64,000 nt of DNA from Oscillospiraceae bacterium. Its GTDB lineage: Bacteria; Bacillota; Clostridia; Oscillospirales; Oscillospiraceae. The stretch spans positions 1 through 64,000 of the forward strand of contig WRBE01000001.1 of the NCBI GenBank assembly GCA_009779845.1. The letters are read 5' to 3'. Of this stretch, positions 18,198 through 36,180 are shown one piece after another; position 1 is the first letter of the stretch; every line of letters starts with the position of its first letter. The notes beneath the pieces were generated by a model that saw only the letters and a list, made by a program, of their open reading frames with translations, searched no databases and was not told the origin of the DNA. The position numbers were made by a program, and so were the translations under genes.

Positions 18198-18557
18198 TTA
18201 AAACTGCTCTGCCAAAAGGGCTTCTTCCAGCTTTTTTAACGCCCGCTTTTCAATCCGGCTTACGTATGACCGGCTAATCCCGCAAACCCCGGCCACTTCC
18301 CGCTGGGTTTTTGGCAGGCAGCCGCCTAAGCCGTAACGCATGGTGATAATCTCGCACTCCCGCTCTGTGAGTCGTTCTTGCACCAGTTCCCGCAGGCGGG
18401 TGTAGGTCTCTACCGCACTGATGTTCTCTAACATATCGTCGGGGACAGATATCACGTCGATTAAACTCAAACTACCCGCATCCCCACCATCAATGGCCTC
18501 GGAGAGACTGAGGTCGCCCTGACTTTTCTTCTGGCTTCGGAAAAACATCAAAATTTC
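18198..18557 (-). CDS. sigK: sigK segment 3 (C-terminal half of sigma-K)
   Basis: Encodes codons 114-232 of the rebuilt sigma-K: EILMFFRSQKKSQGDLSLSE (end of region 2), region 3 (SLIDVISVPDDMLENI) and region 4 with TERECEIITMRYGL and the HTH TQREVAGVCGISRSYVSRIE. No start codon with a ribosome binding site precedes it in this orientation. Upstream bases belong to the recombinase gene, which overlaps it in another frame as far as 18490. The segment is expressed as sigma factor only if element 2 is removed. It is intact, without stops or frameshifts, which argues that excision still happens. Confidence 0.9.
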   Translation of the reverse strand, partial: EILMFFRSQKKSQGDLSLSEAIDGGDAGSLSLIDVISVPDDMLENISAVETYTRLRELVQERLTERECEIITMRYGLGGCLPKTQREVAGVCGISRSYVSRIEKRALKKLEEALLAEQF

Positions 18558-20259
18558 GTTTGTAATCTGTACCTGTTGGAATTTTTTCACCTTTTGTATT
18601 TCTAGCACCTAAAAAATTAAGTGTTACATTCTCGCCATCACTTGTAATAGAACTTACTAATAGCTTTATCATAGTTCTTTTTGAATTTAGGTCTAGTGTG
18701 TCAAAAGAAGTTAAGTATGTGTCAATTATGCTAAGTAGCAGTTCTGCTGTTTCTTTATCGCTTATCTCATCATAGCTATTATTCGTTAATGCTTTTACTT
18801 GCTTTCCCAATTGGTTATTTGCTTCTTTTAGCTCCTTAATCTCTTTTGATAGTTCATCTATCAAAGAAACATCTACAAATTTAATCCTATCAAGCAACAG
18901 AGAGATGTTAGTTTCATTTTTATATATTAGTGACTTCAATGTCTTTAGCTCTTGATTATCTCTATAATCCTTGTTAAATGCGTCAGAAGATAGCTTTTTA
19001 AGAGCTTGATAGAATTTAGATGTAGGTATTACCAATTTTCTAATTTCAGCTAATACTAAATCATCAGCCTCTAGTCCATTGATATTTCTGCATTGACACT
19101 TGTCTTTTTTGCTTTTATCTTTAAGTTCGCACATATAGTCAAATCTCTTACGCCCTTGTTCATCAATCGTTTTGTTCTTTAGTTTCGGACGCATAAATGT
19201 ACCACAATGCGAACATCGGAGTATCCCTGATAAGACCGCATTACTCGTACTTGGCTTGCGATATTTCATGTCGCTATTTCTTTCAAGTATTCCTTGCACT
19301 TCTACCCATATTTTCCCCGGAATAAATCCTTGGTGTTTTCCTACCGATACAATCCAATCAGTAACATGCTTTTTTACTACCACGTTGCTTTTTTTCTCTG
19401 TTTTGTTATACACCATCATGCCATGCTCACCATCAAAGTCTTTTTCATCGGCATAAATCTCTATTCCAGTTTTTCTAAAGTAGTCTAGTGTGTCTTGGTC
19501 AGCTACTGCATAAACTGGGTTAGTTAGAATATTTTTAAGCCCCCATCTACTGAAGTTCTTTCCTGTTTTGGTTTTCATGTTATTTTGAATTGTAAAGGTC
19601 TCCATTTTTGTTTGCGACCTTAACTCTAGCATTTTATAAAAGAGAGTAGTAACTATTTTCTTTTCCTCTATAACATCATCTAACTGAAATAGTTTTCTCT
19701 TTTTGCCGTCTATGGCTACATATTCTATTTGCTTTGACTTATAGCCTGTAGGTGCATTTCCACCAAGCCAACGGCCAGTCTTGGCGAGTTCATGCATGTT
19801 ATCCCTTATACGCTCTGCTATGGTATCTCTTTCTAGTTGAGCAAATACAGAAATCATAAACATCATAGCACGTCCACTAGGAGATACGTTTTCTATACTT
19901 TCTGTTGCTGATAGAAAGGCAACATCGTAGTTGTCTAGCTGTAATAATAGATTGCTGAAATCTGACACATTACGGCTTATTCTATCTAGCTTATAGAATG
20001 CTACTGCTTTAATTTCCTTGCTCTTAATCATTTTAATCATTTTTTGATAATCGGGTCTATTGGTGTTGTAACCTGTAAAACCCTCATCCTCAAAAATGAT
20101 AACATCATTTTCTAAATCCACATCTTCAAAAGCTAAAGCAATTTTCCTTTTACATGCCTCAATTTGATTTTGTGTACTTTCACCTTTGCCTGTATATTTT
20201 GATTTACGGGAGTAAATGGCAATTTTCCTATCGTCTTTAATACCTTTTTTATTCTTCAT
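18490..20259 (-). CDS. large serine recombinase of element 2 (SpoIVCA-type)
   Basis: About 589 residues from the ATG at 20259, which follows GGAAAGGAAAGAGAAG; a TTG six codons upstream overlaps that site. Resolvase domain: IAIYSRKSKYTGKGESTQNQ (catalytic Ser 17), FYKLDRISRNVSDF, SVFAQLERDTIAERI. The recombinase domain (LGGNAPTGYKS, LKNILTNPVY) and a zinc ribbon (LRCSHCGTFMRPK, KCQCRN) follow, then a coiled coil (about 430-500). Its last 23 or so codons cross the attachment core into sigK sequence read in another frame, so its C-terminus differs in the integrated and excised states. Probably excises element 2 in the mother cell. Confidence 0.92.
   Translation of the reverse strand: MKNKKGIKDDRKIAIYSRKSKYTGKGESTQNQIEACKRKIALAFEDVDLENDVIIFEDEGFTGYNTNRPDYQKMIKMIKSKEIKAVAFYKLDRISRNVSDFSNLLLQLDNYDVAFLSATESIENVSPSGRAMMFMISVFAQLERDTIAERIRDNMHELAKTGRWLGGNAPTGYKSKQIEYVAIDGKKRKLFQLDDVIEEKKIVTTLFYKMLELRSQTKMETFTIQNNMKTKTGKNFSRWGLKNILTNPVYAVADQDTLDYFRKTGIEIYADEKDFDGEHGMMVYNKTEKKSNVVVKKHVTDWIVSVGKHQGFIPGKIWVEVQGILERNSDMKYRKPSTSNAVLSGILRCSHCGTFMRPKLKNKTIDEQGRKRFDYMCELKDKSKKDKCQCRNINGLEADDLVLAEIRKLVIPTSKFYQALKKLSSDAFNKDYRDNQELKTLKSLIYKNETNISLLLDRIKFVDVSLIDELSKEIKELKEANNQLGKQVKALTNNSYDEISDKETAELLLSIIDTYLTSFDTLDLNSKRTMIKLLVSSITSDGENVTLNFLGARNTKGEKIPTGTDYKRNFDVFPKPEEKSGRPQSLRGH
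18559..18561. other. element 2 attachment core, sigK-downstream side
   Basis: AAA shared with 26299-26301. Read on the minus strand the element ends ATTAC-AAA and sigK continues CGAAATTTTG. Crossing over within the last two As joins codon 113 (Asn) to codon 114 (Glu). Confidence 0.75.
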
Positions 20260-20338
20260 CTTCTCTTTCCTTTCCAATATCGTTTGAATAGAATTTATTA
20301 TAACACATTTTGAAATGCATTGCCAGAAAATTACAAAA

Positions 20339-20366
20339 ATATTATTGCAATTGCTCCCCTTGTCAA
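20339..20366 (-). promoter_or_regulatory. candidate recombinase promoter
   Basis: Minus strand TTGACA (20361-20366), 16 bases, TAATAT (20339-20344). A second -10-like TATAAT lies nearer the gene (about 20299-20304). The remaining 20370-20780 stretch shows no gene I can support. Confidence 0.45.
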
Positions 20367-20780
20367 GTAGAAGGTGGAGATTTGCGTCTCACGGAAGCAA
20401 ATACTACCTGAACTTGACAACACACCCAAGATATAATAGTTATTGGCTGTTCGGCACACCGTGACGAATAGCCATGATTACCTTTATCTATCCATACCCC
20501 GCCTAGAGTATATGCGTCCAACAAAAAACATGCCATACTTGATTTCATCAAATACAGCATATTTTTCTTATGTCCGCACTCTTGGTCACTAAGGGTATAT
20601 GAATTAGGTCTGTTTGGCTACCATGCGAAGCGCCGTCACAATTTAATTTATCATAATTTTAAATAATTGTTTGTGTTTTTTTCTGTCTGCTTTTATTTTA
20701 ATATAATTTCTCGTGTTGTCGAATGCAATTTTCTAAAAATTCATCTTGTCATTTTTTGCCTCATATCAAAATAGTTTATC

Positions 20781-20950
20781 ACACACCCTCTGCCCGCTAA
20801 ACCCCGCCAACTCCCTTATATTCTTCCCCTGACACACCTTCCACCTCTCTCTTCTTATCTCTATTTACTAATACTAATCTAATCTCACTCACTCTTACTC
20901 ACCACCCCTCTACTACTTGTCTACCTCTTACCACTTATTCACCTACTTTT
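20781..20950. other. C-rich, G-poor tract
   Basis: In these 170 bases I count about 70 C and only 5 G on the plus strand. No frame is convincing. Plus-strand RNA from here would have the C-rich, unstructured composition of a Rho-loading (rut) region, which could stop antisense transcription inside the element. This is inference from composition only. Confidence 0.4.
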
Positions 20951-20976
20951 ATTTATATGACTACAGTATGTAGTTA

Positions 20977-21035
20977 CATGATTATAGAGCTGGGTCTCGG
21001 GTGGTTTTTGCCCGAGACCCAGCTCTATAATCATG
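20977..21035. repeat. perfect 25-bp inverted repeat
   Basis: Arms at 20977-21001 and 21011-21035 are exact complements (beginning CATGATTATAGAGC), with a 9-base spacer containing TTTTT. No T-run follows on either strand, so it is not a standard terminator. A small CTACA/TGTAG palindrome lies just to the left. Confidence 0.8.
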
Positions 21036-21119
21036 CCCACAGGGGATAAAGAAATGTTGGTGAATAAGGGATTGGATAAGCATAGGGTATCTTTTACAGT
21101 ATTTTTTTGATAATTTTTT

Positions 21120-21148
21120 AAGGCGTTCTGGTTTAACCAGAACGCCTT
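21120..21148. repeat. perfect 14-bp inverted repeat
   Basis: AAGGCGTTCTGGTT, one T, AACCAGAACGCCTT. It lies just downstream of the 962-codon gene. Read on that gene's strand it is followed by A-rich rather than T-rich sequence, so it is at best an atypical terminator. Confidence 0.7.
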
Positions 21149-21171
21149 GGGTACAAGATAATATATAGTTT

Positions 21172-24060
21172 TCAACTATCAATTCTAGTAATATCAGCCT
21201 GTCTAATATTACTGTCGCTTTCAATAAAAAATCTCATATAATGTTCATCTGTCGTTAAATTACCAACCAACTCATTATAGTAATAGCAGAATTCTACAAC
21301 AAAGGCCTGTCCATACAGTTGATGTAATTCTTCTACGGTTACTGATGGTTGCCCCAATAACCTGCTGATAGGGATAGACACCATGACAGGATAATCAGTT
21401 AATTGCCTAGTAAACCACTCACTTTCAAATTCTGGAAAAACTATCCAACTCTCATTAGCAGAGGGATGTCGGTAGAAAGACCCTCCCTTCCACCATTCAG
21501 CTTCAGGTGGATTATCACCAAACCACTCACCATATGGGATTGAAAACCATTCTTTCCAGTCATCATAAATATCTCTATTTGTTAAGTCTGGGGCTGAATC
21601 AATAGTATTGCCATTTGAAGTAGTAATAAGCCTATTCCATTCTAACAAAACACTATTTTCTAAAACTCTATAAGACATTGAAAAGTCTCCAAAATCTCCA
21701 TAAATTTCATCTTTAGGAATTTGACCTGTATATTCTCTTATAATAGCCTCAAATTTTTCTTGTGATATTTCCTGATCCCTTTCCCAATCCAATACCGTGT
21801 AGTAAAGTGGTTCATCTAAGGAAATAAAATCCAAATCTGTCCTAGCCTTTAACAGGCGGTTTGATAGTGTTAAAGTATTCCCGCTTTCTGAAATCTTTTC
21901 AAAACTCCACCATTGACCTTGACCACTAGGGGAAACATTTACTATTATACTGCTATTATGCACTGTAATTTGCTGTAGTCCACTTCCTGCTGATATACGC
22001 CCAGCAAGAAAGTATACCTGCCCATCTACCCATGTAAAAATAGCATAAATATCCCTGTTGCTTTCATTGGTTCCTATTCCAATGAGTAGTTCAGGAACAC
22101 CATTTCGATCGATGTCAACAAAAGTATAATACACATTCAAAGAAGGGGTTCCATCATAGGCCTGCTGTAATATGATATGTTTAGATGTCGGTGATGCTAA
22201 ACTTTCACCCACCGAAAAAGCATTGATGTAAAGGAAAGAACCACTTCTAACAGCGTCTCTATATTGTGCAAGAAGTTCATTATATAGGTCATAAGGGTCA
22301 ATATCAGACGATACAGGGATATCTCCCTCATGAAACACCTCAACAGGGATTTCTACCCGCATTCTGCCCCACTCATTACTGTGCAGATTTCTAAAATCAC
22401 TACCCAAAACTAACACGTTGTCAAACTGCTCTGTGTTCATTAACTCTATTAGCAAGGCGTATGTACTGTATACATTTTGTCGCATTTCCAGTACCACATC
22501 TCTATCAATATTGCTATTTACACTTGGATTTGTATAGAATTGATACATAAAATATCTGTTTCTCAAAGTAGTCCGTAAATGCAACATCATAGAAGAACGC
22601 ATATCTCTTATGGCTCGCTCATCTACTTGTATACTGTTTTCTCTAATCCTTTCACGCATTCGAGAAGCACCTAAAGAGGGGCTTGAAAAGAGTAACTCTA
22701 ATAACTCTCTATTATGTATAAAGTGGCCATATCGTAAATAGTGGTCTGCACTCTCCATTCTTGCAATTTGCTCAACATGAATCAATCGGTTAATTGTGTA
22801 CTGCTTAGAAGCAGTTTCTATTTGCGTATTTATCTCTGGCGAAGTCCGTAGTATAGCCATTACACCAGAAGCGACATTCCGAAACTTGCCGGTAAGTGTT
22901 TTATCATGAAATAAAACTGCATCCAAAAACTCCCAACCAGCTTGTGTCATAGCCGCCCTCATAGGGTCAGCCTTCTCATTTAATAGAGCTTGTGCCGCCG
23001 CTCTAATATGCCCGCCATTTGTACCATATCTTGTTGCACAAATCCGACTAAGTAATGTTATATACTCAATAAAATCCTCTCCCCAGTTTTGTGAACGGGT
23101 ATAAACCTCAACTATATTTGATAACATCTTATATAAATCACGTATTCCTTGAATCGGTTCCATTGCCTCTGTAATACTTTCAAGTATGCCAGAATCTATG
23201 CTAATAATATCGTTCCACGCATTGAACCGTAAAGATGGGGCAAATATATCCACAAACTCATTATATCCACTTGCTAACTCACTAATATTTTTTGGTAGCC
23301 CTGCTATATAATATATTGCATCCCAACTACTCTCTATCTCTTTGAAGCCTCTATTTTCTAAAATATTATCAATTGCATTAACTACATCATCAACAAAAAA
23401 ATCAGTATCTTCTTGTAATAACAAGAAAAGAGCTTCTTGATAATCCGCTCTTATCCTTGCTGGCGCATAAAATATCCTTGCACACATATCCGTAAAAAGC
23501 GAGGAAAGAGTTGTGCGTATTGCAAAGCCCCATATACTTTCACCATTTAGCAATAAATCTTCAATTGTTACGCCTGTTGAGTTTATGTATTCCCAATTAT
23601 CTCGCCAAAATTCAAATATGTTCTCACCCATAGGCTGTACAACTAACTGATTGTCCTCAACAACCCATTGTGCGTGAAGTAAATATAGCATTTTTTCAAT
23701 GTCAAAATACAATTCTTCATCTGCACTAATGGTGTTAAATTCATAACTATGCCCCATTGTATCTGCTTGTCCATCCCAATAAAAAACCATTGTTTTATTG
23801 TCATTTTCACGGCTAAAAACCGCCCCAAGTCCATCATCTATAACTGTGTACCCTGCTATCAAACCAATATCATTTGCAGAAAAATAAATTCGCTCTCCTC
23901 TTAAAAATGCTTTATGATAGGATATATCACCTTCTGGCATAATCCGAACAGCTATATATCCTACCTTATCATAATCAGCAACAGCATTAGCCCCGATAAC
24001 AGGCAAAACAGTGAAAAGCATAAGTAAAGCAACAAGAAAGCTAGTAATTCTTTTCAACAT
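21172..24060 (-). CDS. large secreted protein of unknown function, 962 aa
   Basis: The ATG follows TATAGGAGGAAATATTAA. A signal peptide (residues 1-26, ending GANA) precedes a domain of about 120 residues rich in beta structure (KAFLRGERIYFSANDIGLI), which faintly recalls copper-amine-oxidase N-like stalk domains. A long helical middle (about 150-560) follows, then a region with VDIDRNGVPELLIGIG, an Asp/Asn-rich calcium-type loop as in FG-GAP/EF-hand repeats (near 655). No SLH or LPXTG anchor is visible. It follows the 186-codon gene by 13 bases, so they form an operon. I do not recognise the protein. Confidence 0.8.
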   Translation of the reverse strand: MLKRITSFLVALLMLFTVLPVIGANAVADYDKVGYIAVRIMPEGDISYHKAFLRGERIYFSANDIGLIAGYTVIDDGLGAVFSRENDNKTMVFYWDGQADTMGHSYEFNTISADEELYFDIEKMLYLLHAQWVVEDNQLVVQPMGENIFEFWRDNWEYINSTGVTIEDLLLNGESIWGFAIRTTLSSLFTDMCARIFYAPARIRADYQEALFLLLQEDTDFFVDDVVNAIDNILENRGFKEIESSWDAIYYIAGLPKNISELASGYNEFVDIFAPSLRFNAWNDIISIDSGILESITEAMEPIQGIRDLYKMLSNIVEVYTRSQNWGEDFIEYITLLSRICATRYGTNGGHIRAAAQALLNEKADPMRAAMTQAGWEFLDAVLFHDKTLTGKFRNVASGVMAILRTSPEINTQIETASKQYTINRLIHVEQIARMESADHYLRYGHFIHNRELLELLFSSPSLGASRMRERIRENSIQVDERAIRDMRSSMMLHLRTTLRNRYFMYQFYTNPSVNSNIDRDVVLEMRQNVYSTYALLIELMNTEQFDNVLVLGSDFRNLHSNEWGRMRVEIPVEVFHEGDIPVSSDIDPYDLYNELLAQYRDAVRSGSFLYINAFSVGESLASPTSKHIILQQAYDGTPSLNVYYTFVDIDRNGVPELLIGIGTNESNRDIYAIFTWVDGQVYFLAGRISAGSGLQQITVHNSSIIVNVSPSGQGQWWSFEKISESGNTLTLSNRLLKARTDLDFISLDEPLYYTVLDWERDQEISQEKFEAIIREYTGQIPKDEIYGDFGDFSMSYRVLENSVLLEWNRLITTSNGNTIDSAPDLTNRDIYDDWKEWFSIPYGEWFGDNPPEAEWWKGGSFYRHPSANESWIVFPEFESEWFTRQLTDYPVMVSIPISRLLGQPSVTVEELHQLYGQAFVVEFCYYYNELVGNLTTDEHYMRFFIESDSNIRQADITRIDS

Positions 24061-24073
24061 TTAATATTTCCTC

Positions 24074-24634
24074 CTATAGTCCAAGTCCCTCAGAAATATA
24101 TGAGGGAAATCCGCCTAATAAGGCATCCGATAATTCAGCATTCATTTGAATTCTCATTCCTACTGGATATACTCTTACTATTACAGATGCTTGGAACGTT
24201 CTTCGTGGTGCGTTCGGAGAATTAACATATTCTTCTATGCTGTCTAAAATTCTGTTGGGATTTGTTTCTTCTATATTTTCTATTCCCCTCAAAATCTCCG
24301 CCAAGTCTATGTTGTCAACCTCTACATCAATCCATATAGTTTGAGGATCATTTTCATCCACACGTTCACCGATAATTGTGTGTGTCAAAGTTTCAGCTAG
24401 ATGTCCCTGTACTCCATCATAAGTCATATCTGAGTCATCAAAAACAGATGTTGTAAGAAACATTCCTGCTCTTGGGTCTTTCTCGTGATATGCTCTAAGG
24501 AAGTTGTCTACAAGTTGCTCTGCCTCGCTAAGTTCTCTTTGGCTACCTCTAAAACTTAAAATAAACCCTGCCAAAACAAGGCAAATAACAACTAAAATAG
24601 CAATCGCTATCAATATTATTTTCTTTGATTTCAT
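24074..24634 (-). CDS. membrane-anchored NTF2-like protein, 186 aa
   Basis: AAAAGGAGGAAAATTGTTTT precedes the ATG. An N-terminal membrane anchor (residues 5-28, IILIAIAILVVICLVLAGF) is followed by an extracytoplasmic domain starting EAEQLVDNFLRAYHEKDPRA, the typical first helix of NTF2/DUF4878-like folds. It is first in the operon with the 962-residue secreted protein and may bind or retain it at the membrane. Function unknown. Confidence 0.72.
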   Translation of the reverse strand: MKSKKIILIAIAILVVICLVLAGFILSFRGSQRELSEAEQLVDNFLRAYHEKDPRAGMFLTTSVFDDSDMTYDGVQGHLAETLTHTIIGERVDENDPQTIWIDVEVDNIDLAEILRGIENIEETNPNRILDSIEEYVNSPNAPRRTFQASVIVRVYPVGMRIQMNAELSDALLGGFPSYISEGLGL

Positions 24635-24732
24635 AAAACAATTTTCCTCCTTTTAAAAATTTGTGATATATTGGGTAAAAAGTCTTAATGTTTCTAAATT
24701 TAGGACTTTAGCGTACACTTCAATTTGACAAA

Positions 24733-24761
24733 ACTATACAGAAAAATCATCATGTTGTCAA
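24733..24761 (-). promoter_or_regulatory. promoter of the 186/962-aa operon
   Basis: Minus strand TTGACA (24756-24761), 17 bases, TATAGT (24733-24738): a near-consensus vegetative promoter about 100 bases upstream of the first start codon. Confidence 0.72.
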
Positions 24762-24909
24762 TATGTCTGTTATCCTCTCGAAGCATACGTTATTCCCTTA
24801 TGCGGAGTATACAACATATCATTTATATAGTCAAGACACATCTTTACTATATGTACATCTTAATTATTTTGTTCCTTTATTTGCGGTAGAATTTATTAGG
24901 GTGATGTGA

Positions 24910-25107
24910 GTGATTAAACTAAATGTTCAACAGTTGCTAGATAGCAAGAGGCAAACAAGATATTGGCTTGTAAAAAATATGGAATCCAATTATGAGACGG
25001 TTAATAGGCTTTGCGATAATCATGCTGTTGCTCTACAACTAGAAACAATAGAAAAGTTATGCAAAATTCTTAAATGTACGCCTAATGATTTATTCACCAT
25101 AGAATAG
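24910..25107 (+). CDS. small XRE-type HTH protein
   Basis: 65 residues starting with GTG behind AGGGTGATGTGA. KRQTRYWLVKNMESNYETVN and LCKILKCTPNDLFTIE match the short single-HTH Cro-like proteins of clostridial mobile elements. It is divergent from the secreted-protein operon and could control that promoter. Confidence 0.72.
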   Translation: MIKLNVQQLLDSKRQTRYWLVKNMESNYETVNRLCDNHAVALQLETIEKLCKILKCTPNDLFTIE

Positions 25108-25167
25108 ATTGTAATATACATGGGAAATCCCCCATTTCCTTATCATTTAGCTTAGGATTTTAACATG

Positions 25168-25209
25168 AAACCCCGCACTCCTTAAAAATAAAAGGATTGC
25201 GGGGTTTTT
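25168..25209 (+). terminator. intrinsic terminator
   Basis: AAACCCCGCA pairs with TGCGGGGTTT, with an inner CCTT/AAGG pair, followed by TTTTTG. It ends the small XRE gene. Confidence 0.85.
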
Positions 25210-25316
25210 GTCGTAAAGTTAGGAACTTTAAGACTTTTGCACTTGTGCGGTCGCATTTTGTGACTGTGCTTTTTTATTTTATGCGGGTGATTTCAATTTA
25301 TTACACTTTAAAAATA

Positions 25317-25469
25317 CTACGATTGTTCTTTTTGAATATGAGCTTGATTTTCTTGCTCTCTCTGTTTCTTTTCCTCTCTCATTTTTCTCGGAATTGAAGT
25401 CTTTAGAAAAAATTTGAGCATTTTAATTTGCAGTTCTTTTGGTAGCGTTATTTTCTTTTCATTTTCCAT
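25317..25469 (-). CDS. small basic protein, 50 aa
   Basis: The frame MENEKKITLPKELQIKMLKF continues FLKTSIPRK and ends in a Lys/Glu/Gln-rich helix; a GAGGTG lies eight bases before the ATG. I recall similar short proteins with an LPKELQ...KFFLKTSIPRK core in clostridial integrated elements. No function is known. As a small basic protein beside a serine recombinase it is one candidate for a directionality factor, which is speculation. Confidence 0.5.
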   Translation of the reverse strand: MENEKKITLPKELQIKMLKFFLKTSIPRKMREEKKQREQENQAHIQKEQS

Positions 25470-25600
25470 ACTACGAAGCACCTCACAATCATATTTAGAT
25501 TTTCAATTTATGATATCGTAAAAGATTTTGAATTTCAACCTCTTATAACTATAATAAAACAAATAATCATCTTACCCACCCCACCCGAATACAATTTAAC

Positions 25601-25786
25601 ATGAAAGTTTTTGTGAACCTCCCAGAGCTAGAGGAGGATAAAATCGAGCTTGAAAATAGAATCGCTGATTTTCATGCGACCCTGTTAATTGAAAAAATAA
25701 GAGGGCTACATACAAATGACATTACAAAAGAAAAACTGCTAAATATGGCATTAGAGCATATAAAAGAGAAGGAAAACGATGTATGA
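25601..25786 (+). CDS. small hydrophilic protein, 61 aa
   Basis: Encodes MKVFVNLPELEEDKIELENR and a helical remainder ending EKENDV. Composition is protein-like, but there is no clear ribosome binding site. It ends a few bases before the convergent two-domain XRE gene. Tentative. Confidence 0.45.
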   Translation: MKVFVNLPELEEDKIELENRIADFHATLLIEKIRGLHTNDITKEKLLNMALEHIKEKENDV

Positions 25787-25811
25787 GCATTTTAACTCAT
25801 ACATCGTTTTA
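25773..25811. terminator. bidirectional terminator
   Basis: AAAACGATGTATGAG pairs with CTCATACATCGTTTT; A and T runs flank both sides, so it can end both convergent genes, whose last codons it includes. Confidence 0.75.
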
Positions 25812-26232
25812 ATATATCAAACTTTTTTCTTGTTATAGTAGTTATCCCAAGCTCCCATGCCCTTATTGATGATATATACACACCCACCATATCTGCAAGC
25901 TCTTTTCTTGTTAAACTTCGCTCTTTCCTAAAATTAGTTATTGTCTCACTAGGATTGTCCAACAAAAATTTGATATAGTCATCATTAATTTTGACTTTAT
26001 CCTTTATTTCCAATTCATCAAGCACCCTTTTTATTAAATCAACATCAATAAATTTTGATTTATAATTTTCAATACTTCCTATGGTATATCTGCAACAACC
26101 TATTCTTTGGGCTAACTCGGTTTGTTCTATATCTGCAAGCCTACGATAGTATTTAATTTGTTCCCCTAATGTGCTGTTTTTATCAATAGGTTTTACCTTT
26201 CTTACTGTATGCGTTTTAATAATTATTGTCAT
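25792..26232 (-). CDS. two-domain XRE regulator
   Basis: From the preferred ATG at 26232 (MTIIIKTHTVRKVKPIDKNS) it has 146 residues with two HTH domains: LGEQIKYYRRLADIEQTELA and FRKERSLTRKELADMVGVYI. Similar tandem-HTH proteins accompany clostridial integrated elements. The same frame is open upstream to 26286, near the attachment core, and no good ribosome binding site marks either start. On the excised circle this frame would be continuous with the recombinase gene. Confidence 0.7.
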   Translation of the reverse strand: MTIIIKTHTVRKVKPIDKNSTLGEQIKYYRRLADIEQTELAQRIGCCRYTIGSIENYKSKFIDVDLIKRVLDELEIKDKVKINDDYIKFLLDNPSETITNFRKERSLTRKELADMVGVYISSIRAWELGITTITRKKFDILKRCMS

Positions 26233-26297
26233 AGGGATTACGTCTTTTAAGTTGCCGAACATTTTCGCCACATTACTTTCCAACATGTGAGAGTCAT

Positions 26298-26435: not shown

Positions 26436-28084
26436 AAACATGTATTACGTAAGGATACATCTTCCAAGCCGGGCAGGTGGTGCTTTTTCTTGTCGTAGAT
26501 TGCGAGGATAATTCCGCCGGGCTTTAAGTGGACATTGAGGCGCACGTTATTCCGATTGCCTGTGTTGAACACTTCAATTTTATCCAATATCTGAGTCACG
26601 AGCTCGGAATTGATTCCCGTTTGGAAGTCGAACTCTTGTTCCAGTGCTTGTTTCACTTTAAGCAAATGCTCCATAAGGCTTTGGCTTTTTTTCTGCTCTT
26701 TTTCGAGACATTGCATGTTATCCTCGAGTAATACAATCTGTTTGTTAAAAGCTTCGTTGCGTACCTGAAACTCATGATTGCTTATCAGTTCTTCCATGCT
26801 CAACTCAAGTAGCTTATCCTTTTTCTTGAGAAGGGCTTCTATTTCGCTTTCCAACTTTTTCATTTCAGCGCAGTAGTTCGTTTTGTCTGGCGCACTTCGG
26901 ATTAGGGCCAGCGTCTGCTCAATATATCCGCCTTTATCTTGGTGGATTCTATCGAAAATCGCCGCCATGACAACATCTAGCTCTTCGCTCCGGGGTTGCG
27001 GCGCAGAACACCCGGCAAGCCCTCGTGTGCGATATGTCTTACATTGCCATATCTCTTTCTCGCCCTTTTGGGATTTCAGTGCCTGACGGTGAAAAGAGGT
27101 TCCGTGTTCGGCGCAGACAAGCTTCCCGCTGTACGTGTAAATATTATGATACTCTGCACCGCTTTGGCGGAGTGCGGCACCACGGCGTTTGATGAGCGCA
27201 TTTGCGCTATCCCAAATCTCTTCGCTTACAATTGCGGGAATATTCTCGTCCCGATAAACGATCCATTCGCTCTCGTCTAGTGGGATACTTTTTTTGGTTT
27301 TATAGTCAATAGACTTCGTTCTATTGCCACAGTAGTACCCCTTATATTTCGGGTTTAGAATCATGTTCTTTATCGTAGTGGTATTAAACGGATTCCCTGT
27401 TCTACTTGTAATTCCCTTGGTGTCATATAAGTGTTGGGAGAGCCGCCTGAGCCCCATGCGCTGATTCACATATAGATCAAATATCGCTCGAACGATCTCC
27501 GCTTCTTCCTCGTGGATTGTCAGCTTACAATCCTTTTTATTGTATCCATAAATGCGGTCATTCCCTAGCACCCGCCCATTTTTGATGGATTGCTGAAACC
27601 CGAATTTCAGACGTTCCGATAATTTGCGTACTTCATCCTGGGCAACACCGGCCATGACAATCAGGCGAAACTCACTGTCGGGGTCTAAGGTGTTGATATT
27701 ATCGTTTTGAAACAACACACCTACACCCATGCTTAACAATTCCTGTGTATAGCGAATGGAATCTAGCGTATTGCGCGAAAAGCGTGATATCTCTTTCGTA
27801 ATGATAAAATCAAATCGGTCAGCTTTCGCATCCTCAATCATGCGATTAAAGCGGTTGCGCTTCAATGTGCTCGTTCCGCTAATCCCCTCGTCTATATAGC
27901 CATCGATGTATGTCCAACAGTCATTTCGTGTTATCAAGTCCGTAAAATAGTCAACTTGATTCTCTAGGCTACTTGATTGTTCGTACTTATCTGTCGAGAC
28001 ACGCGCATAAAACGTGACACGCATAGGCAGGGTGTAGATTGTCTGCCCATGATGTAGCGTTTCCCGAATTCTTCGTATATCCAT
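26396..28084 (-). CDS. large serine recombinase of element 1
   Basis: 562 residues. Resolvase domain with MRVTFYARVSTDKYEQSSSL (catalytic Ser 30), ITKEISRFSRNTLDSIRY and AGVAQDEVRKLSERLKFGF; recombinase domain (IYGYNKKDCKL, IKNMILNPKYKGYYCGN); zinc ribbon (GKLVCAEHGTSFHRQAL...WQCKTY...GCSAPQ); coiled coil about 400-480. It is only distantly similar to the element 2 enzyme, so the two elements are not recent duplicates. The last 12 codons lie inside sigK segment 2. Rebuilding the circle shortens the end to NTCLI. It probably excises element 1. Confidence 0.93.
   Translation of the reverse strand: MDIRRIRETLHHGQTIYTLPMRVTFYARVSTDKYEQSSSLENQVDYFTDLITRNDCWTYIDGYIDEGISGTSTLKRNRFNRMIEDAKADRFDFIITKEISRFSRNTLDSIRYTQELLSMGVGVLFQNDNINTLDPDSEFRLIVMAGVAQDEVRKLSERLKFGFQQSIKNGRVLGNDRIYGYNKKDCKLTIHEEEAEIVRAIFDLYVNQRMGLRRLSQHLYDTKGITSRTGNPFNTTTIKNMILNPKYKGYYCGNRTKSIDYKTKKSIPLDESEWIVYRDENIPAIVSEEIWDSANALIKRRGAALRQSGAEYHNIYTYSGKLVCAEHGTSFHRQALKSQKGEKEIWQCKTYRTRGLAGCSAPQPRSEELDVVMAAIFDRIHQDKGGYIEQTLALIRSAPDKTNYCAEMKKLESEIEALLKKKDKLLELSMEELISNHEFQVRNEAFNKQIVLLEDNMQCLEKEQKKSQSLMEHLLKVKQALEQEFDFQTGINSELVTQILDKIEVFNTGNRNNVRLNVHLKPGGIILAIYDKKKHHLPGLEDVSLRNTCLKNITPNPLTKPT
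26434..26435. other. element 1 attachment core, sigK-downstream side
   Basis: AA on the minus strand in CATGTTTAAAAAATATTAC. Joined to 34849-34850 it gives ...CATATTATGAAAAAATATTAC, encoding HIMKKYY, the length and sequence expected for sigma-K. Confidence 0.72.
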
Positions 28085-28121
28085 GCCCTGAGTGCCTCTC
28101 TTCTATCATGTTGTTGTATCG

Positions 28122-28235
28122 TCAAATAGATCGGAGGCGCTCTAGCGCACTATAATAGGTTGCCTCGGAAATATAGCCCTTTTCAAATACGCGTTTGAGG
28201 AGCACGGCAATAATATCTTTATTGGTTGTTGTCAT
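28122..28235 (-). CDS. 37-aa protein preceding recombinase
   Basis: Encodes MTTTNKDIIAVLLKRVFEKG and YISEATYYSALERLRSI behind GCAAGGAGGCAAACAAG, a very strong ribosome binding site, 37 bases before the recombinase start. Its helix-turn-helix-like short form recalls SHOCT-like C-terminal motifs. Co-transcribed with the recombinase; a recombination directionality factor is a reasonable guess without direct evidence. Confidence 0.6.
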   Translation of the reverse strand: MTTTNKDIIAVLLKRVFEKGYISEATYYSALERLRSI

Positions 28236-28344
28236 CTTGTTTGCCTCCTTGCCAAGTGCTTCGACTATATAATCACTCTATTGCTAGATAAGCTTATCCT
28301 ATGCGTGATGCTACTGGGAAGAGAGAGAAACCGTAAACGGTAAA

Positions 28345-28374
28345 CAACCCCGCACCTGCATAGGTGCGGGGTTG
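28345..28374 (-). terminator. terminator of the SLH-protein gene
   Basis: CAACCCCGCACCT pairs perfectly with AGGTGCGGGGTTG around a 4-base loop. On the minus strand only TTT-poor sequence follows (GTTGTTTACCG), so it is a moderate terminator. Beyond it, 28236-28344 contains a GATAAGCTTATC palindrome and no gene. Confidence 0.65.
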
Positions 28375-28418
28375 CTTATCGCTTATGTTGTTACTTACTT
28401 TGCTGCATACTGCGTATG

Positions 28419-31400
28419 TTAGGTAATACTGATATCCAGAATCTCAAGCCAGATTTCCATGCCGTTTTCCATTCTCATCAGGCGATGGCTGTTGGTGGCC
28501 TCGATAACTTGGAGGTAGAACCATTCGTGCTCGAATACGTCCGGGAAGAAATGGATGTCATCTAGTACGCCTGCAATACTTGTGGCACTTATGTCACTTC
28601 TGCCCAAGATACGGTTGACGGCTGTCGCCATTTCCGCACGGGAGGTGTCGCCCCGCGGGTTGAATCGATTGCCGCCCACACCGTGCATCCAGCCTAGGTA
28701 ATTCACAGTGTACACATAGTTTCTTGCCCAGAGGCTGATGTCGCCTTGATCCACAAAGCCGAACCCGCTGGCTGTGCGAACTGTGTCGGTTCGTGCAACC
28801 ATTGCCGCCAGTTGCTCTCTGGTAATCCATTCGTTAGGCAAGAACCTGCCGTCATCAGTACCTTGGATCAGACCCGCTGTATAAGCCCACGCCACATAGC
28901 GATAGAACCATTGATTCTCATTGACATCGCTGAATCTACCACGAATATCCGGTACCGACGCTGTGGGGGAGTATCCCGACACCATGGTTCGTGCCAGAAT
29001 TGTGGCTACCTCGGCTCTGGTGATTTGACCTCTCGGTCTGAAGTTGCCGAGGTTATCCCCGACCATGTAGGCCAAGTGCGTTTGATAGATATCCTGCTCA
29101 AGCCGTACCGTCACAAAGGCAATGCTTTCGATAAAGTCCGCTTGGGTGACGGCTACACTGTTTCTTCTAAATCCTTCTGCTTCGGCAATGACGGTACCTG
29201 CGATGGCCAGTGGCAGCCGATAGAACCAGTTGTTGCCTGTTCTGGTAAGCGCCTGCCCATTAAACTGCACCGTGGCGGTCGGAATCGGCTGATCCAGTGT
29301 GTCAACCACCGTTACAGCCATCATAAAGGGCCGCTCTAGGTCGCCTGACTCTAGGAACACGTTTGCTGTAACACCGCTGCTGTCTGCTACCACTGCCGGG
29401 TTTACTGCCGATACATTTGGCGCAAATCCACTGGCAGAGGCCATCACCATGTAAGCACCAGGTGCCATTGGTTCGGTTTCAAAGAAGCCGCCTGCATCCA
29501 CACGTAGCCTTGTCACAGTGCCCACCGCATCCACGACCATCACAGATGCGTGGGGAATCGGTATGGTGGTGCCTGCCATAAAGACATGACCCCGGATGGG
29601 GCCAGGGGCACCCGGTAATACTTCTCCGCCCAAAACCAAGTTCACGAATACAAAGCCCCTGTCGGCAAATTGCTGTGATGTCACGGAATAGCTGGCCGGG
29701 ATGAAGCCTGTCAAGGTCGCATGGGCTTCTCCGGCAGTGGGTGCGTTTAAGGTTGCAACCCACAACGTACCGTCTCTGGCGACAGTGTTACCGTTAAAGG
29801 TGACGGCGACATGTTCCTCTTGACCAGCGGGTGCGCCGATGACATTGATAAAGACACGATACACATCGTTCGGTGCGCCCGGATCCGGTCTGTCCAGATA
29901 CACATCGGCGACCACACCGGCGGCGGGAGTCAGAAGAATTGGGTCAACTTCCGCCACGCTGGCTAGGAATGTATTTGCGTTGGCAATGACACGGTAAATG
30001 GCCCCGTGTGCCGGCACAGAACGGGCCGGGAACTGGAAGAATCCGGTTGCGTCTGCGGTTACGGTAGCGGCCACTTCGCCGGCGTTGTTAATTAGTGTTA
30101 CTGTTGCACCGGGGATTACGGTGGTGCGGTCATCGGCGCGGCGGACAAAGCCACTGATGACACCCGGTGCGGGAGTGCTTCGGGCCAGTGCGATTTGAAC
30201 CGTTTCACCTGTATCGTCCGGGCTTACGGTGTGGGTATTTTCCCCGAACCGGGCCGCCGTGGCACGGAGCTTGTCTCCTGCTACCGCTACGACACCTGTA
30301 AAGATACCACTGGCGCCCGGGATTTCTTCCTCGGCGTTGTCAAACAATGCGGCATGGGGAATCGGGCGATAGCCGGGTTGGCCGTTCGGCTGTGTAAATG
30401 CTTCGACCACATGGACGTCAAATCTGATCTCGCGTTCTAATACGATGAAGATTCTGGCCGGAGTTGCCGCAGTCCCTTCTTCTGGGTCTGCCTCAACGGC
30501 ATCTTCAAAGTAATCCCCTGCAATCACCTCTCTAGAGAGAAAGCCCGGTGCGCCGACCTCTAAGATAGTCAGTGTGGTCGCATTGTTTAACAGGAGTGGG
30601 TTCGTGCCTGTCCAGTTTAAGTTGGCCGGGAACCGCTCAGGCGGAGGCGGATGGAACGCATGAAATGTCGTGTTCGGAATGGGAACCAACTCGATTTCAC
30701 CCGTTTCCGCATGATAAACTTCTTCTACGATATGGACTTGGGCTCCGTTTGGTATCCGAATATCCTCTAAGAAAATAGTAGCCCACAATGCCCCTGTGCC
30801 ACCGGTAATCTCATCGAACAGATTTGCTGTGAAGGCAAGCTCCAGCCACTCAAATCCAACTGCACCGGCTTCCATCGCATCGCCGAAGGTGACTGTGTTT
30901 GCAGCAAAAACAAAGTGTCTGGTGTTGCCTGTGCCGCCTCGGGTATTGTGCTGCACCCCGCGGTGGAGCAGGGTCGTATGATCTGTAATATTCGGTGGTG
31001 TATCTGCTTCAGAGCTACCATCACGCACGACAATGTTAATCTGTCTGTCGATGGGTGTTCGTTGCATTGCAATCTGCATGGTGCGGCTGTCATAGTCCGC
31101 TTGTGTGATTTGTACATTGGTTTGCGGCAGATAGCCCAGTGCCGTTACGCTGACAGTCTGGATGTTCGGCACGATATAGGCCATACGTGCAACAAGGATG
31201 CCGCCGTCGTTTACTATGGTATTTGGAACCGCAGGGAACGTAATGGATGCATGACCGATGATTGAGTTGTTCGGACAGTCAGCATCTACAACCTCAATCA
31301 CGAATACATCCGAATCCGCTTCCACGCCGAAGCCAACGACACCCGTGGTGGTCAAAAGTCCAGCGGTAAGTCTGCGGGGGTTTGCAAAGGTGGTGACGGT

Positions 31401-34400
31401 TTCTTGGCCATTGCCGCCTGTGTGTGAAATAAGGCGGTGGCCGAGGTTCCCGCTGGTGCCATGGGCAAACGTCTGGTGGACATTGAAGAGCCGCGTGGTG
31501 TCCGGGCGTTGCACGCCGCTATAAGCAACGGTAACAGAGCCCGCTGTTGTCGGCATGTATAATGTGTGGAAGTCCGGGGCCACGTTGGAGGCCAATACAT
31601 TGAAAAACTGCGGGTATGATGCGCCCGGGGCGGCACCGGCCCGCTCTGCCTGCCACGCAAAATAGGGTAGGGTGCTTTGATCTTCTGTAAGGTGCTGAAT
31701 CCCGACTCTCCACGGGCCACGGTTGAGACCGGGCAGTACGCCCAATGCCAAAGCATCTGAGCCCATAACGGTAATACCGCCTCTGTGGGCCTGTAATCGG
31801 TCACGATTGACAGAGGCACCTGTTCCAAATGCCCCCATGGTATTGACGACATAGACGTTTGAGAACGCAAAGGAACTCACCGCAGCGTTTTGAGCGGTGG
31901 CTTGTCTTGCTACCGCAACGCCTGTATGGGTTGCCGCCACATACCCGTTGCGGATTGTCATACTGCCGGCGTCACGGCGACCGACAATGCCACTGCCTCG
32001 GTTTGCAGTATTCGTTCTAACAGACCCGATGTTGTAGAAGTCTTCTATGAGTCCGCCCGCCTGTTGGCGGCCGATGAATCCGCCCACATGCCAGCTTCCG
32101 GCGGTTCCTTGGGAGGAAATGAATCCTGCGTTAAACGTCTCTCGGATCGTAATCGGGCCAGTTCGGTGACGGCCGACAATACCGCCTGCACCGCCCCGGG
32201 CGGAACTACTCGACTGAGCGGCTCTGTGATGTGTCCAAACCCGGCCAAAGTTACCGGCTTGCTCAATCAGGGTATTGGCCCCATTGTTATCACCCACAAG
32301 ACCGCCAACGCTAGAATTTCGGCGCGCAATACTGCCGCTGTCGGCACCGCGGATATAGCCGTAGTTGATGCTGCCGCCGTGAATGGTGACCCGCGGTGTG
32401 GTTTGAATCAAACCGATCATGCCGCCGCCCACCTGTGAAGCCCGCACGGCACCATAGTTTGTCGCATTGGTGATACGTGTGACGGAACCGGCGTTGTTTC
32501 CGCCGAGCACATGCGCAATGATACCACCCGCCGTGTGCATCCGGCGGGCATCGCCAGTGGATCGGATGGCCCCTTCGTTAACGACGTTGGTCAAAATAAT
32601 CTGCTGGTTTGCCGCTGCCGCTGGGTGTTCGGCACGGCCAATGATACCGCCGCCGCGGACGCCGGTATTTTGCGATGAAGCCGCTGTACCTGTATTGTTC
32701 CTGTGAATCAAACCGCTGTTAAACCCATCGGTAATCAACATTCTGTTGTGAGAGTGCCCGACTAAGCCGCCCAGACGGCCAAGGTCATTCGCCGAATGGC
32801 GGATTTCCGCATAGTTGCGGCCGATGGTGATTTCTGTCGGGCCGGTAGAACGGCCAATCAGACCGCCCACATTTTTTGTGCCAGCACCGCTGGCTTCTAT
32901 CTGGCCGCGGTTTTCCACGTCATGTAGCCTTGAATTGGTGCCCCCAGGGCCGGCTAGTAGACCGACCATTCCGCCAATGTCGCCTGCGGCGCCGGAAGTG
33001 GTTCTGACGATTCCGGTGTTATGACCCAGGGTGATCTCCACCACACCAGTGGAATGTCCGATCAGACCGCCTACATTTTTTGTACCGGCATTGCTGGCTA
33101 CGACCAGAGCACGGTTTGCTACATTATCTAGCCTTGCGGTGTTTTCTGAGCGACCGATTAAGCCCCCCAGCGTACCCGCTGCGCCGATTGAATTTCTGAC
33201 TTCCCCGGCGTTGTGGCCGATGCTGATGTCCACCGTGCCGCTGGAACGACCAATTAGGCCGCCCACGTTTCTGCCGCCGCTGCCCGTGGTGTTCATCAGT
33301 GCTTGGTTTGCCACGCTATACAGTCTTGTGGAGTTGGCCGCAAGGCCAATTATCCCGCCCAAATCCCCTGCCGTCGTGGTAGTCACAGGGGCTGTGTTGG
33401 TGACATCTCTGATAATCGTGCTGCCGCCTGCCGCTGTGTGGCCGATGGCACCGCCGGCGTGGCTGCTGCCCACGATACCGCCGGTTGTTGTGCTCACAGT
33501 GGTGTTTTCAATCACCACGTTGCCGCCGGTACTGCGGCCTACAATACCGCCCGCATTTGCAAACGGAGTGCCGCCAGTGTTACGTACCCGGACATGCGCA
33601 CGATTATATGTTCTACCATATGCAGTGATGTTCAGGTTGCCGTTGTTTTCGCCAACCAGACCGCCGCCAAAGTTGTCCGCACCGCCGTTTTGTAAGTGAA
33701 TATCCACCGTTACATCCACGTCCACGATGTTGAGTGTAGCACCAGCCTCCACGCGGCCGACCAAGCCGCCTGCCCGCTTGTTCTGGTTAACGGCCCCGCC
33801 AGTGGGTGCGCCCAGATTAACAGCGGCATTGTCTGTAATAGTGACACCCTCAATGAGCACCCCTTGAGTACCCGGCGTCACGCTGCCGATAATGAGACCC
33901 GCCGAGAATGTGGCGGCGGCCCAACCGTCCGTATGCGGTGCGTCTTGGATGCTGGGTGCGACAAAGGTCACGTTCCAGATCACTGCGCCCGGACCCGCAT
34001 GTTGAAGAAAGCCAAGGTTTGTTGGCGCATGGGGCGCATTCTGGAGACGCAGACCTGTGATGGTATGATTGTTTCCAAAAAACATGCCCGTAAACGTTCC
34101 CGGTCGGCCCGTGTGCGCTGTTGCGGGGATGTTGATGTTTTCTTGGAGAATAAATGTGTCGCTATTTTCTCCCAAATCTCCGCTCAGAAACTGCACAATG
34201 TTTCCGCTATTCACATTATGTACCGCTCCAGACCGTGGCTCTGCCGCTACGATGGTTGCAGCAGATAATGGTTCCGTCTGTTCCGCCGCTATTGCCTCAT
34301 GTGCGCCATCCCCATTTTGGTCGACGGCGAACGCCCCCCCCGGGACAGACGTGAAGAGCATGAATAGTGCCAATAGCAAACAGACAGCTCTCACCGCTCC

Positions 34401-34427
34401 TTTGTTGTTCTGATGTAGCAGTTGCAT
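28419..34427 (-). CDS. giant SLH-anchored surface protein, 2002 aa
   Basis: AAGGAGAACGTACC precedes the ATG. Signal peptide 1-34 (ending GAFA). Residues about 70-870 are a long series of GLUG-type repeats (GGLIGRSTG..., GGIVGRS...) expected to form a beta-helix stalk. The middle has beta-rich domains; carboxypeptidase-regulatory-like domains follow near 1470 (GVISGFVRRADDRTTVIPGA) and 1665 (GPIRGHVFMAG), plus a related copy. The last 200 residues hold three SLH domains (FRPRGQITRAEVATILARTM; NEWITREQLAAMVART; NPRGDTSRAEMATAVNRI). Likely an adhesin or S-layer-associated protein. It is the only substantial cargo of element 1 and has its own promoter. Confidence 0.9.
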   Translation of the reverse strand: MQLLHQNNKGAVRAVCLLLALFMLFTSVPGGAFAVDQNGDGAHEAIAAEQTEPLSAATIVAAEPRSGAVHNVNSGNIVQFLSGDLGENSDTFILQENINIPATAHTGRPGTFTGMFFGNNHTITGLRLQNAPHAPTNLGFLQHAGPGAVIWNVTFVAPSIQDAPHTDGWAAATFSAGLIIGSVTPGTQGVLIEGVTITDNAAVNLGAPTGGAVNQNKRAGGLVGRVEAGATLNIVDVDVTVDIHLQNGGADNFGGGLVGENNGNLNITAYGRTYNRAHVRVRNTGGTPFANAGGIVGRSTGGNVVIENTTVSTTTGGIVGSSHAGGAIGHTAAGGSTIIRDVTNTAPVTTTTAGDLGGIIGLAANSTRLYSVANQALMNTTGSGGRNVGGLIGRSSGTVDISIGHNAGEVRNSIGAAGTLGGLIGRSENTARLDNVANRALVVASNAGTKNVGGLIGHSTGVVEITLGHNTGIVRTTSGAAGDIGGMVGLLAGPGGTNSRLHDVENRGQIEASGAGTKNVGGLIGRSTGPTEITIGRNYAEIRHSANDLGRLGGLVGHSHNRMLITDGFNSGLIHRNNTGTAASSQNTGVRGGGIIGRAEHPAAAANQQIILTNVVNEGAIRSTGDARRMHTAGGIIAHVLGGNNAGSVTRITNATNYGAVRASQVGGGMIGLIQTTPRVTIHGGSINYGYIRGADSGSIARRNSSVGGLVGDNNGANTLIEQAGNFGRVWTHHRAAQSSSSARGGAGGIVGRHRTGPITIRETFNAGFISSQGTAGSWHVGGFIGRQQAGGLIEDFYNIGSVRTNTANRGSGIVGRRDAGSMTIRNGYVAATHTGVAVARQATAQNAAVSSFAFSNVYVVNTMGAFGTGASVNRDRLQAHRGGITVMGSDALALGVLPGLNRGPWRVGIQHLTEDQSTLPYFAWQAERAGAAPGASYPQFFNVLASNVAPDFHTLYMPTTAGSVTVAYSGVQRPDTTRLFNVHQTFAHGTSGNLGHRLISHTGGNGQETVTTFANPRRLTAGLLTTTGVVGFGVEADSDVFVIEVVDADCPNNSIIGHASITFPAVPNTIVNDGGILVARMAYIVPNIQTVSVTALGYLPQTNVQITQADYDSRTMQIAMQRTPIDRQINIVVRDGSSEADTPPNITDHTTLLHRGVQHNTRGGTGNTRHFVFAANTVTFGDAMEAGAVGFEWLELAFTANLFDEITGGTGALWATIFLEDIRIPNGAQVHIVEEVYHAETGEIELVPIPNTTFHAFHPPPPERFPANLNWTGTNPLLLNNATTLTILEVGAPGFLSREVIAGDYFEDAVEADPEEGTAATPARIFIVLEREIRFDVHVVEAFTQPNGQPGYRPIPHAALFDNAEEEIPGASGIFTGVVAVAGDKLRATAARFGENTHTVSPDDTGETVQIALARSTPAPGVISGFVRRADDRTTVIPGATVTLINNAGEVAATVTADATGFFQFPARSVPAHGAIYRVIANANTFLASVAEVDPILLTPAAGVVADVYLDRPDPGAPNDVYRVFINVIGAPAGQEEHVAVTFNGNTVARDGTLWVATLNAPTAGEAHATLTGFIPASYSVTSQQFADRGFVFVNLVLGGEVLPGAPGPIRGHVFMAGTTIPIPHASVMVVDAVGTVTRLRVDAGGFFETEPMAPGAYMVMASASGFAPNVSAVNPAVVADSSGVTANVFLESGDLERPFMMAVTVVDTLDQPIPTATVQFNGQALTRTGNNWFYRLPLAIAGTVIAEAEGFRRNSVAVTQADFIESIAFVTVRLEQDIYQTHLAYMVGDNLGNFRPRGQITRAEVATILARTMVSGYSPTASVPDIRGRFSDVNENQWFYRYVAWAYTAGLIQGTDDGRFLPNEWITREQLAAMVARTDTVRTASGFGFVDQGDISLWARNYVYTVNYLGWMHGVGGNRFNPRGDTSRAEMATAVNRILGRSDISATSIAGVLDDIHFFPDVFEHEWFYLQVIEATNSHRLMRMENGMEIWLEILDISIT

Positions 34428-34519
34428 GGTACGTTCTCCTTCTTTTGTTATTTCTTGATTTGCAATATAATATTCCGTTTCATATTGATTTTTTACGCTT
34501 TTCTAAAAAATCTTATTGC

Positions 34520-34548
34520 AGAATATCATATTTTTAGTTCATTGTCAA
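34520..34548 (-). promoter_or_regulatory. promoter of the giant SLH gene
   Basis: Minus strand TTGACA (34543-34548), 17 bases, TATTCT (34520-34525), a vegetative-type promoter about 90 bases before the start codon. It makes expression independent of sigK. Confidence 0.7.
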
Positions 34549-34628
34549 TACTTGCAAATAGACATTAACAGGTATTTAAAATTTCAATATTTTTTAATGT
34601 AAAAGCTTTCTTTTTAGGTGACATAAAA

Positions 34629-34661
34629 CAAAAAGTCAGTCGGCGCTTCTTGCGCCAACTG
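34629..34661 (-). terminator. terminator between sigK segment 1 and the SLH gene
   Basis: On the minus strand CAGT.GGCGC pairs with GCGCC.ACTG, followed by TTTTTGTTTT. It would stop transcripts from the sigK promoter soon after they enter element 1. The rest of 34428-34850 has no gene. Confidence 0.7.
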
Positions 34662-34848
34662 ATCCGGCCTGTCAAAAGAACGTAGGTGTTTTACTGTCCG
34701 CAACGGCTATGAAAGCACAATTTATATAGTTGTTTTCTGCCTGAAGAAGCGAGATGCACCGTGTATTCATACTCTACAGTATATATTCATTTGGCATTGA
34801 CTACAGTGTTTTCTTGTTAAAAAAACTGTGCTTTCGTAGGCAATCATA

Positions 34849-34850
34849 TT
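34849..34850. other. element 1 attachment core, sigK-upstream side
   Basis: AA in ATTATGAATATGATT on the minus strand. SigK (HNLRLVAHIM) lies upstream and the element starts at TATGATTGCC. Confidence 0.72.
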
Positions 34851-35051
34851 CATAATATGGGCCACCAAGCGGAGGTTGTGTTCAATCAGCTTGTTCCTAG
34901 CCTCTAAATCACCTTTGACCAAGCGGTCGATATAGCGTTTTTCTTCCTCCGGGCATAGTGGCCGTGGGAACGAGCCGCCGATATCTCCGCCTAGGCGAAG
35001 GGTTAATACAGCACCGCCCATGAGCAGAAGGAATAGAGCTGATATGATCAT
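34851..35051 (-). CDS. sigK: sigK segment 1 (pro-sequence and N-terminus)
   Basis: The ATG at 35051 follows GAGGCGGTGTCTGT. Codons 1-67 encode a hydrophobic pro-sequence (MIISALFLLLMGGAVLTLRL), as in pro-sigma-K that is cut by SpoIVFB, then FPRPLCPEEEKRYIDRLVKG and LIEHNLRLVAHIM, the start of region 2. Read on without excision, the frame enters element 1 and stops at 34767 after 27 foreign codons, giving a 94-residue dead product. Sigma-K runs late mother-cell genes in sporulation. Confidence 0.93.
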
Positions 35052-35205
35052 ACAGACACCGCCTCAATCGGGATTTTTAATTATGATTAGTCAACTATAC
35101 CTTATTCACCGCCATGTTGTCCCGTTCCATTTTTTCGAGAGAGAAGTATGTTTTCGCCAAATGGGCGGAACTTTTTGGAAAACGGCTCGTCTAGCCTTTA
35201 AACGG

Positions 35206-36173: not shown

Positions 36174-36180
36174 AGATTTG

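Follow-up and report, generated by a model that had tools for sequence, protein, structure and literature searches.

An Oscillospiraceae sigK gene in three exons, interrupted by two unrelated elements with separate large serine recombinases

The gene for sigma-K (sigK), a master regulator of late sporulation, lies in three exons on the minus strand of the 64,000-nt stretch of Oscillospiraceae DNA analysed here (positions 1 to 64,000 of contig WRBE01000001.1; hereafter the window). Each of the two gaps between the exons is occupied by an element that carries its own large serine recombinase (LSR), and the two elements are unrelated. We consider it likely that both are excised separately in the mother cell, and that sigma-K becomes available only after both excisions. 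The window's genome (G000) comprises 2.42 Mb in 91 contigs and is 95% complete.

The three-exon sigK gene and its two elements

Exon 1 (34851..35051; all features are on the minus strand unless stated otherwise) has 67 codons, begins with a hydrophobic N-terminal stretch that we read by eye as a pro-sequence, ends at HIM and joins in frame. Exon 2 (26298..26435) has 46 codons, runs from KKYY to CVEN and is flanked by both elements. Exon 3 (18198..18557) runs from EILM to the end of the protein, with 119 codons and the stop. Together they give 201 + 138 + 360 nt = 699 nt, or 232 codons and a stop, gap-free and with no internal stop. The NCBIfam SigK profile TIGR02846 covers the three pieces in order (positions 23-68, 65-116 and 108-225), which assigns them to sigma-K; singly, each scores under the full-length cut-off, as expected. 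A preliminary description of this DNA had given the three pieces with their order, coordinates and frame, gaps of 8,415 and 7,740 bp, and a different LSR at the same relative end of each gap. All of these proved exact, with one LSR per gap at the sigK-3' end. It had also named a second intact sigK as evidence against itself; the genome, at its 95% completeness, yielded no further full-length sigK. The next full-length match there has 48% identity and scores above the SigE cut-off.

The sigK gene is uninterrupted and single in all three other genomes of the same genus that were compared, with 84-85% identity over residues 1-231 or 1-232. Amino-acid changes private to one sequence number 7 in the window and 8, 4 and 12 in these intact relatives; synonymous differences between the window and all three are saturated. 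As the private-change counts are similar, the split gene appears to be about as constrained as the intact copies. Ahead of sigK, the window and two relatives retain a GGACAA motif, which may be a SpoIIID box; expression under sigma-E and SpoIIID would be expected of a skin element.

Element 1 (26436..34850, 8,415 bp) occupies site 1, which follows HI- in sigK, and element 2 (18558..26297, 7,740 bp) occupies site 2, which follows -EN; both are absent from sigK of the three relatives. The G+C content of element 2 is mostly 32-43%. Both elements share these properties with a skin element: the sigK frame is split, precise removal would restore it, and an LSR gene lies inside. No phage structural gene, of the kind expected in a defective prophage, was found in either with Pfam or PHROGs.

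The two recombinases, LSR1 (26396..28084) and LSR2 (18490..20277), are encoded on the sigK strand at the sigK-3' end of their own elements, so placed that the 3' end of LSR1 overlaps exon 2 and that of LSR2 overlaps exon 3. Both frames are open, and both proteins agree with the definition of a 500-600-aa LSR, with Pfam domains Resolvase, Recombinase and Zn_ribbon_recom. The two proteins align at 54 bits with 24% identity over 370 aa.

Serine recombinases cross over at two bases. In the register of the reading frame, the attachment (att) sites attL1 (34849..34850) and attR1 (26434..26435) share AA, the sole two bases common to them around the join, and attL2 (26299..26301) and attR2 (18559..18561) share AAA, within which the second core would lie. 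The implied attP1 and attP2 are imperfect dyads about the core (13/25 and 14/25; shuffle p 0.007 and 0.003), and the attB sites are not dyadic about it (5/25 and 2/25). This arrangement is consistent with a two-base AA core in a dyad-symmetric attP, as would be expected for an LSR. Other site-1 elements that are readable on both sides have five bases in common, AAGAA or AAAAA; in other site-2 elements AATG is usually common to both sides, in some just AA.

From these parts we propose that LSR1 and LSR2 would each recombine their own attL and attR during sporulation, with crossover at AA, that a small directionality factor would assist each in excision and that the two systems would not cross-react. 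The unrearranged sigK copy would be transmitted via the spore. Most likely sigK would serve as a safe harbour for such elements, since the mother cell is lost in any case. Provided that both elements leave, sigma-K is under an AND gate; this two-key control of late sporulation would be a consequence, and the N-terminal pro-sequence would be removed afterwards.

Recurrence of the double interruption and the two recombinase lineages

A sample of 400 genomes was drawn from the family, and the pattern of sigK pieces was read in 89 of them (44 + 45) without a strong full-length match, leaving out other family genomes with weak sigK matches. An open 46-codon exon 2 flanked by elements on both sides is present in eight genomes of seven genera, the window's included (G000, G093, G069, G287, G366, G155, G249 and G319). 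All three exons share one contig in two of the eight (G000 and G093), exons 2 and 3 do so in G287, and the exons of G366 and G155 are spread over three contigs; exon 3 was not found in G069, G249 and G319. In two further genomes, G198 and G171, exons 1 and 3 are cut and exon 2 was not found. This recurrence in other genera strengthens the earlier proposal of two independent skin-like elements in one sigK gene.

The preliminary description had suggested that related genomes be checked for none, one or both of the insertions. A single genus (g22) already contains all four states: neither in G119 and G306, site 2 only in G024, site 1 only in G182 and G231 (exon 1 of G231 was not located) and both in G366. 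A tree of 22 LSR1 proteins contains eight from doubly interrupted genomes (G198 counted in) and nine from singly interrupted ones, interleaved, with six changes of state, at least four of them forced by well-supported branches; 5.9 changes are expected by shuffling. This interleaving indicates that the double state arose several times by combination.

Protein records give further leads. With the 64-residue exon-2 open reading frame (ORF) of the window as query, 582 proteins were found, and a script classed the best 120 by the residues that flank the exon, hence from protein sequence alone: 54 appear doubly cut, 55 appear cut at site 2 alone and 7 at site 1 alone, and 4 appear uncut. Six of the 54 were dropped as misparsed or unclear (P0243, P0318, P0319, P0270, P0294 and P0311), which leaves about 48 of the best 120 that look doubly cut. 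One of the proteins, P0297, bears the name of Pseudoflavonifractor sp. P01025 / Flintibacter porci; it is found on 28 contigs, and P0304 is the same exon with a longer start, on 70 contigs. In the dropped P0243 an additional copy of the end of exon 2 precedes the complete exon, which may reflect a by-product of recombination or an assembly error.

Each LSR lineage is tied to its site. Among 39 fetched loci with sigK pieces, the window excluded, 12 have an LSR1-type recombinase and 16 an LSR2-type (L089 has both), and neither type occurs at the site of the other; in the stretch read at 12 of the 39 loci there is no LSR. One LSR2 locus (L110) additionally has a 68-bit fragment matching LSR1. For LSR1, 394 genomes of the order were surveyed and 30 loci fetched: a sigK piece lies within the 1.5-kb flanks of all ten that score at least 550 bits (the window's own among these ten best), and of none of the 20 weaker ones. 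LSR2-like loci adjoin a sigK piece in 26 of the 30 fetched (own locus included), across ten family codes, and the four misses score 314-367 bits. Because the high-scoring loci adjoin sigK pieces, both lineages look dedicated to sigK. Some elements are flipped, so that the LSR adjoins the upstream exon.

The 29 LSR1 relatives on viral contigs have no sigK piece in the stretch examined, no LSR2 relative on a viral contig was confirmed, and among the phage records searched no close phage form was found (best matches 41% for LSR1 and 38% for LSR2). A sigma-like match occurs in 6 of 80 LSR1 relatives retrieved from named genomes; it adjoins the LSR in two Oscillospiraceae metagenome-assembled genomes (L177 and L178, 35% and 48% identity) and does not in the other four.

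Cargo, a split sigG gene and the weighing of explanations

Directly upstream of LSR1 lies a 37-aa ORF (28122..28235). It is a candidate recombination directionality factor, since skr occupies the same place in Bacillus subtilis (PMC6957869). Of 19 other LSR1 loci tried, 18 have a counterpart, 12 at E < 0.01 and 6 above; two of the loci belong to one genome. A small ORF overlapping the LSR2 start was rejected as a candidate, as an alternate frame within conserved coding DNA appears conserved anyway.

The remaining cargo of element 1 includes a 2002-aa protein with S-layer homology domains (28419..34427; Pfam SLH and CarboxypepD_reg), which PHROG tail and endolysin families match within the S-layer-domain part (1787-1949) only. 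Element 2 encodes a 962-aa protein (21172..24060) that matches no Pfam, PHROG or PADLOC family and has, by eye, a signal-like N-terminus, and a 186-aa protein (24074..24634) without a Pfam or PHROG family, with an NCBIfam match under the cut-off and, by eye, a membrane anchor. It also carries two genes for helix-turn-helix (HTH) proteins, one of 65 aa on the plus strand (24910..25107; Pfam HTH_26) and one of 164 aa with two HTH domains (25792..26286; Pfam HTH_3 and HTH_19). The start codon of the latter follows exon 2 by 11 nt, and departure of element 1 would therefore place this gene under the sigK promoter. Through this gene, the departure of element 1 may set the order of excision.

The sigG gene of the same genome is split as well, on contig C10 at VPMII|GEIRR (pieces 25860-26153 and 51384-51857; loci L170 and L171). 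The junctions have 14 bases in common, and the pieces join in frame to 256 residues; private changes number 9, against 4, 6 and 6 in the intact relatives of the genus. The 25,230-bp insert encodes Cas3-like, Csd1 and Cas4 proteins as well as a relaxase. It also has a tex-like gene and, 3.1 kb from the sigG 3' piece, the gene for a 466-aa serine recombinase. By eye, translations of one stretch in L170/L171 (about 29783-41000) show a recurring motif of the kind that a CRISPR array would give.

A sigG 3' piece that starts at residues 93-95 occurs in 7 of 150 family genomes, G000 included. The 5' piece was found in four of the seven (G000, G006, G024 and G119) and was not found in G048, G053 and G124. 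In genus g22 three more genomes are sigG-split, and G306, G338 and G366 are intact. A serine recombinase of 419-525 aa adjoins the 3' piece in 8 of 12 fetched loci; these are 35-51% identical to that of G000 and form a third recombinase lineage. The g22 inserts (L317-L320; G024, G119, G231 and G182) measure about 6.4 kb and have in common a 632-656-aa protein, resembling by eye an aldehyde ferredoxin oxidoreductase, besides other non-phage cargo. At L321 (G270:C233) the two sigG pieces differ in strand, and there is therefore an inversion or a misassembly there.

We put forward only tentatively, and rather doubt, that three excisions in two cells lock late sporulation, two in sigK of the mother cell and one more in sigG of the forespore, whose element returns after germination. 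With the forespore as the germ line, excision there would mean loss of the sigG element unless it re-entered the chromosome after germination; no report of such a developmental cycle of excision and re-entry was found in the open-licence literature. Nearly all intervening elements of this sort occupy mother-cell genes (PMC6957869), a pattern that the sigG split, if functional, would break.

The split sigG gene also bears on the main rival explanation, namely that both insertions are fossils in a lineage that no longer sporulates, the elements staying in place and sigK being a young pseudogene that has yet to decay. Besides sigG, the scores of SigF and SigH under the NCBI cut-offs and the lack of a SpoIVA match in the relative G001 speak for it. 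We nevertheless find it quite unlikely: all three exons have kept an open frame and have not diverged further than the intact relatives, the frames of both LSRs are open too, the window's genome has intact SpoIVA and SigE, which score over their cut-offs, and the double state recurs with an open exon 2 in eight genomes.

An artefact of assembly or binning, by which contigs of two singly interrupted strains were merged, is far less probable still. The architecture is known from assembled sequence alone, in a short-contig assembly, and in six of the eight double genomes the exons are spread over two or three contigs or exon 3 was not found. Against this, the 138-bp exon 2 bears both boundaries in all eight, G093 likewise has all exons on one contig, about 48 of the best 120 exon-2 proteins look doubly cut, and the clusters of the window's LSR1 and LSR2 are found on two contigs each. 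An error in the window's contig is thus improbable, because other genomes have the same architecture.

We give as little credence to a single recombinase that serves both elements, or to an attL1 x attR2 recombination that deletes exon 2 together with both elements. AA would be usable in both crossovers, but the LSRs are only 24% alike and, among the loci read, each lineage keeps to one site; moreover, a protein lacking exon 2 would have its sigma region 2 destroyed. Joining of the pieces at the RNA or protein level, intron- or intein-like, is the least probable of all: three in-frame exons would suit it, but each insert has an LSR at its edge, as in known DNA-excised elements, and the proteins scanned matched neither a reverse transcriptase nor an intein domain.

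Separate excision of both elements remains the reading that we prefer, and several points weigh against it. We infer the excision of both from the sequence, and no excised form is in evidence. Sporulation itself is unproven, given the split sigG and the SigF and SigH scores below the NCBI cut-offs. The constraint on sigK could predate the insertions, and a recent insertion would give the same picture. The candidate directionality factor of LSR1 is put forward on its position and as a weakly conserved 37-aa ORF, and no directionality factor was found for LSR2.

Comparison with known systems

The preliminary description had held the double interruption to be undescribed. In the open-licence literature, as far as its text was accessible and with most subscription papers outside this scope, we recognised no doubly interrupted sigK and no interrupted sigG, but the arrangement is not unique to the window's genome, being present in eight genomes of seven genera.

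As single insertion sites, sites 1 and 2 are probably not new. The B. subtilis skin element presumably sits at the codon of site 2. Its recombination sequence is AATGA (PMC10745906), which the AATG of most site-2 elements resembles, and site 2 is therefore probably the skin site, although the core in the window is AAA. The system resembles skin, with its LSR SpoIVCA and directionality factor Skr, in that sigK is interrupted, the LSR adjoins a sigK piece, excision would rejoin the frame and a small ORF lies directly upstream of LSR1, as skr lies just upstream of the LSR gene (PMC6957869). It differs in having two elements of about 8 kb with surface-protein cargo, whereas skin is single, 48 kb and prophage-like.

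In Clostridioides difficile, an LSR and a directionality factor (CD1231 and CD1234) excise the skinCd element from sigK in the mother cell (PMC5025042). Unlike the window's elements, skinCd is single and lies at another site; its orientation is opposite to that of B. subtilis, and its sigma-K has no pro-sequence. Bacillus cereus biovar anthracis has a 22-kb insertion at nt 195 of sigK, with an LSR and no phage genes, which is excised during sporulation (PMC10745906). It is again a single interruption and, compared by position only, lies near site 1 (nt 201 here). Other AATGA insertions are at nt 423 of B. cereus sigK (PMC10745906), which, with the numbering of that article taken as given, does not fit site 2 (nt 339 here). 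The elements gin in gerE of B. cereus, which has no phage genes, and yin in yabG of Clostridium botulinum likewise have serine recombinases and are excised from sporulation genes (PMC5595907, PMC10747680), but they are single interruptions of other genes.

Since empty, single and double states coexist even in one genus, the cost, order and benefit of the excisions are testable in close relatives. The LSR lineages and their natural att sites may also be of use as tools for orthogonal integration. Among known AND gates, the nearest is that of SP-beta and skin in B. subtilis, where spsM is read by sigma-K and its expression requires the excision of both elements (PMC4191935). There, two genes each contain one element; here, one gene contains two, and two sequence-unrelated excisions for a single master regulator would make a natural two-key recombinase gate.

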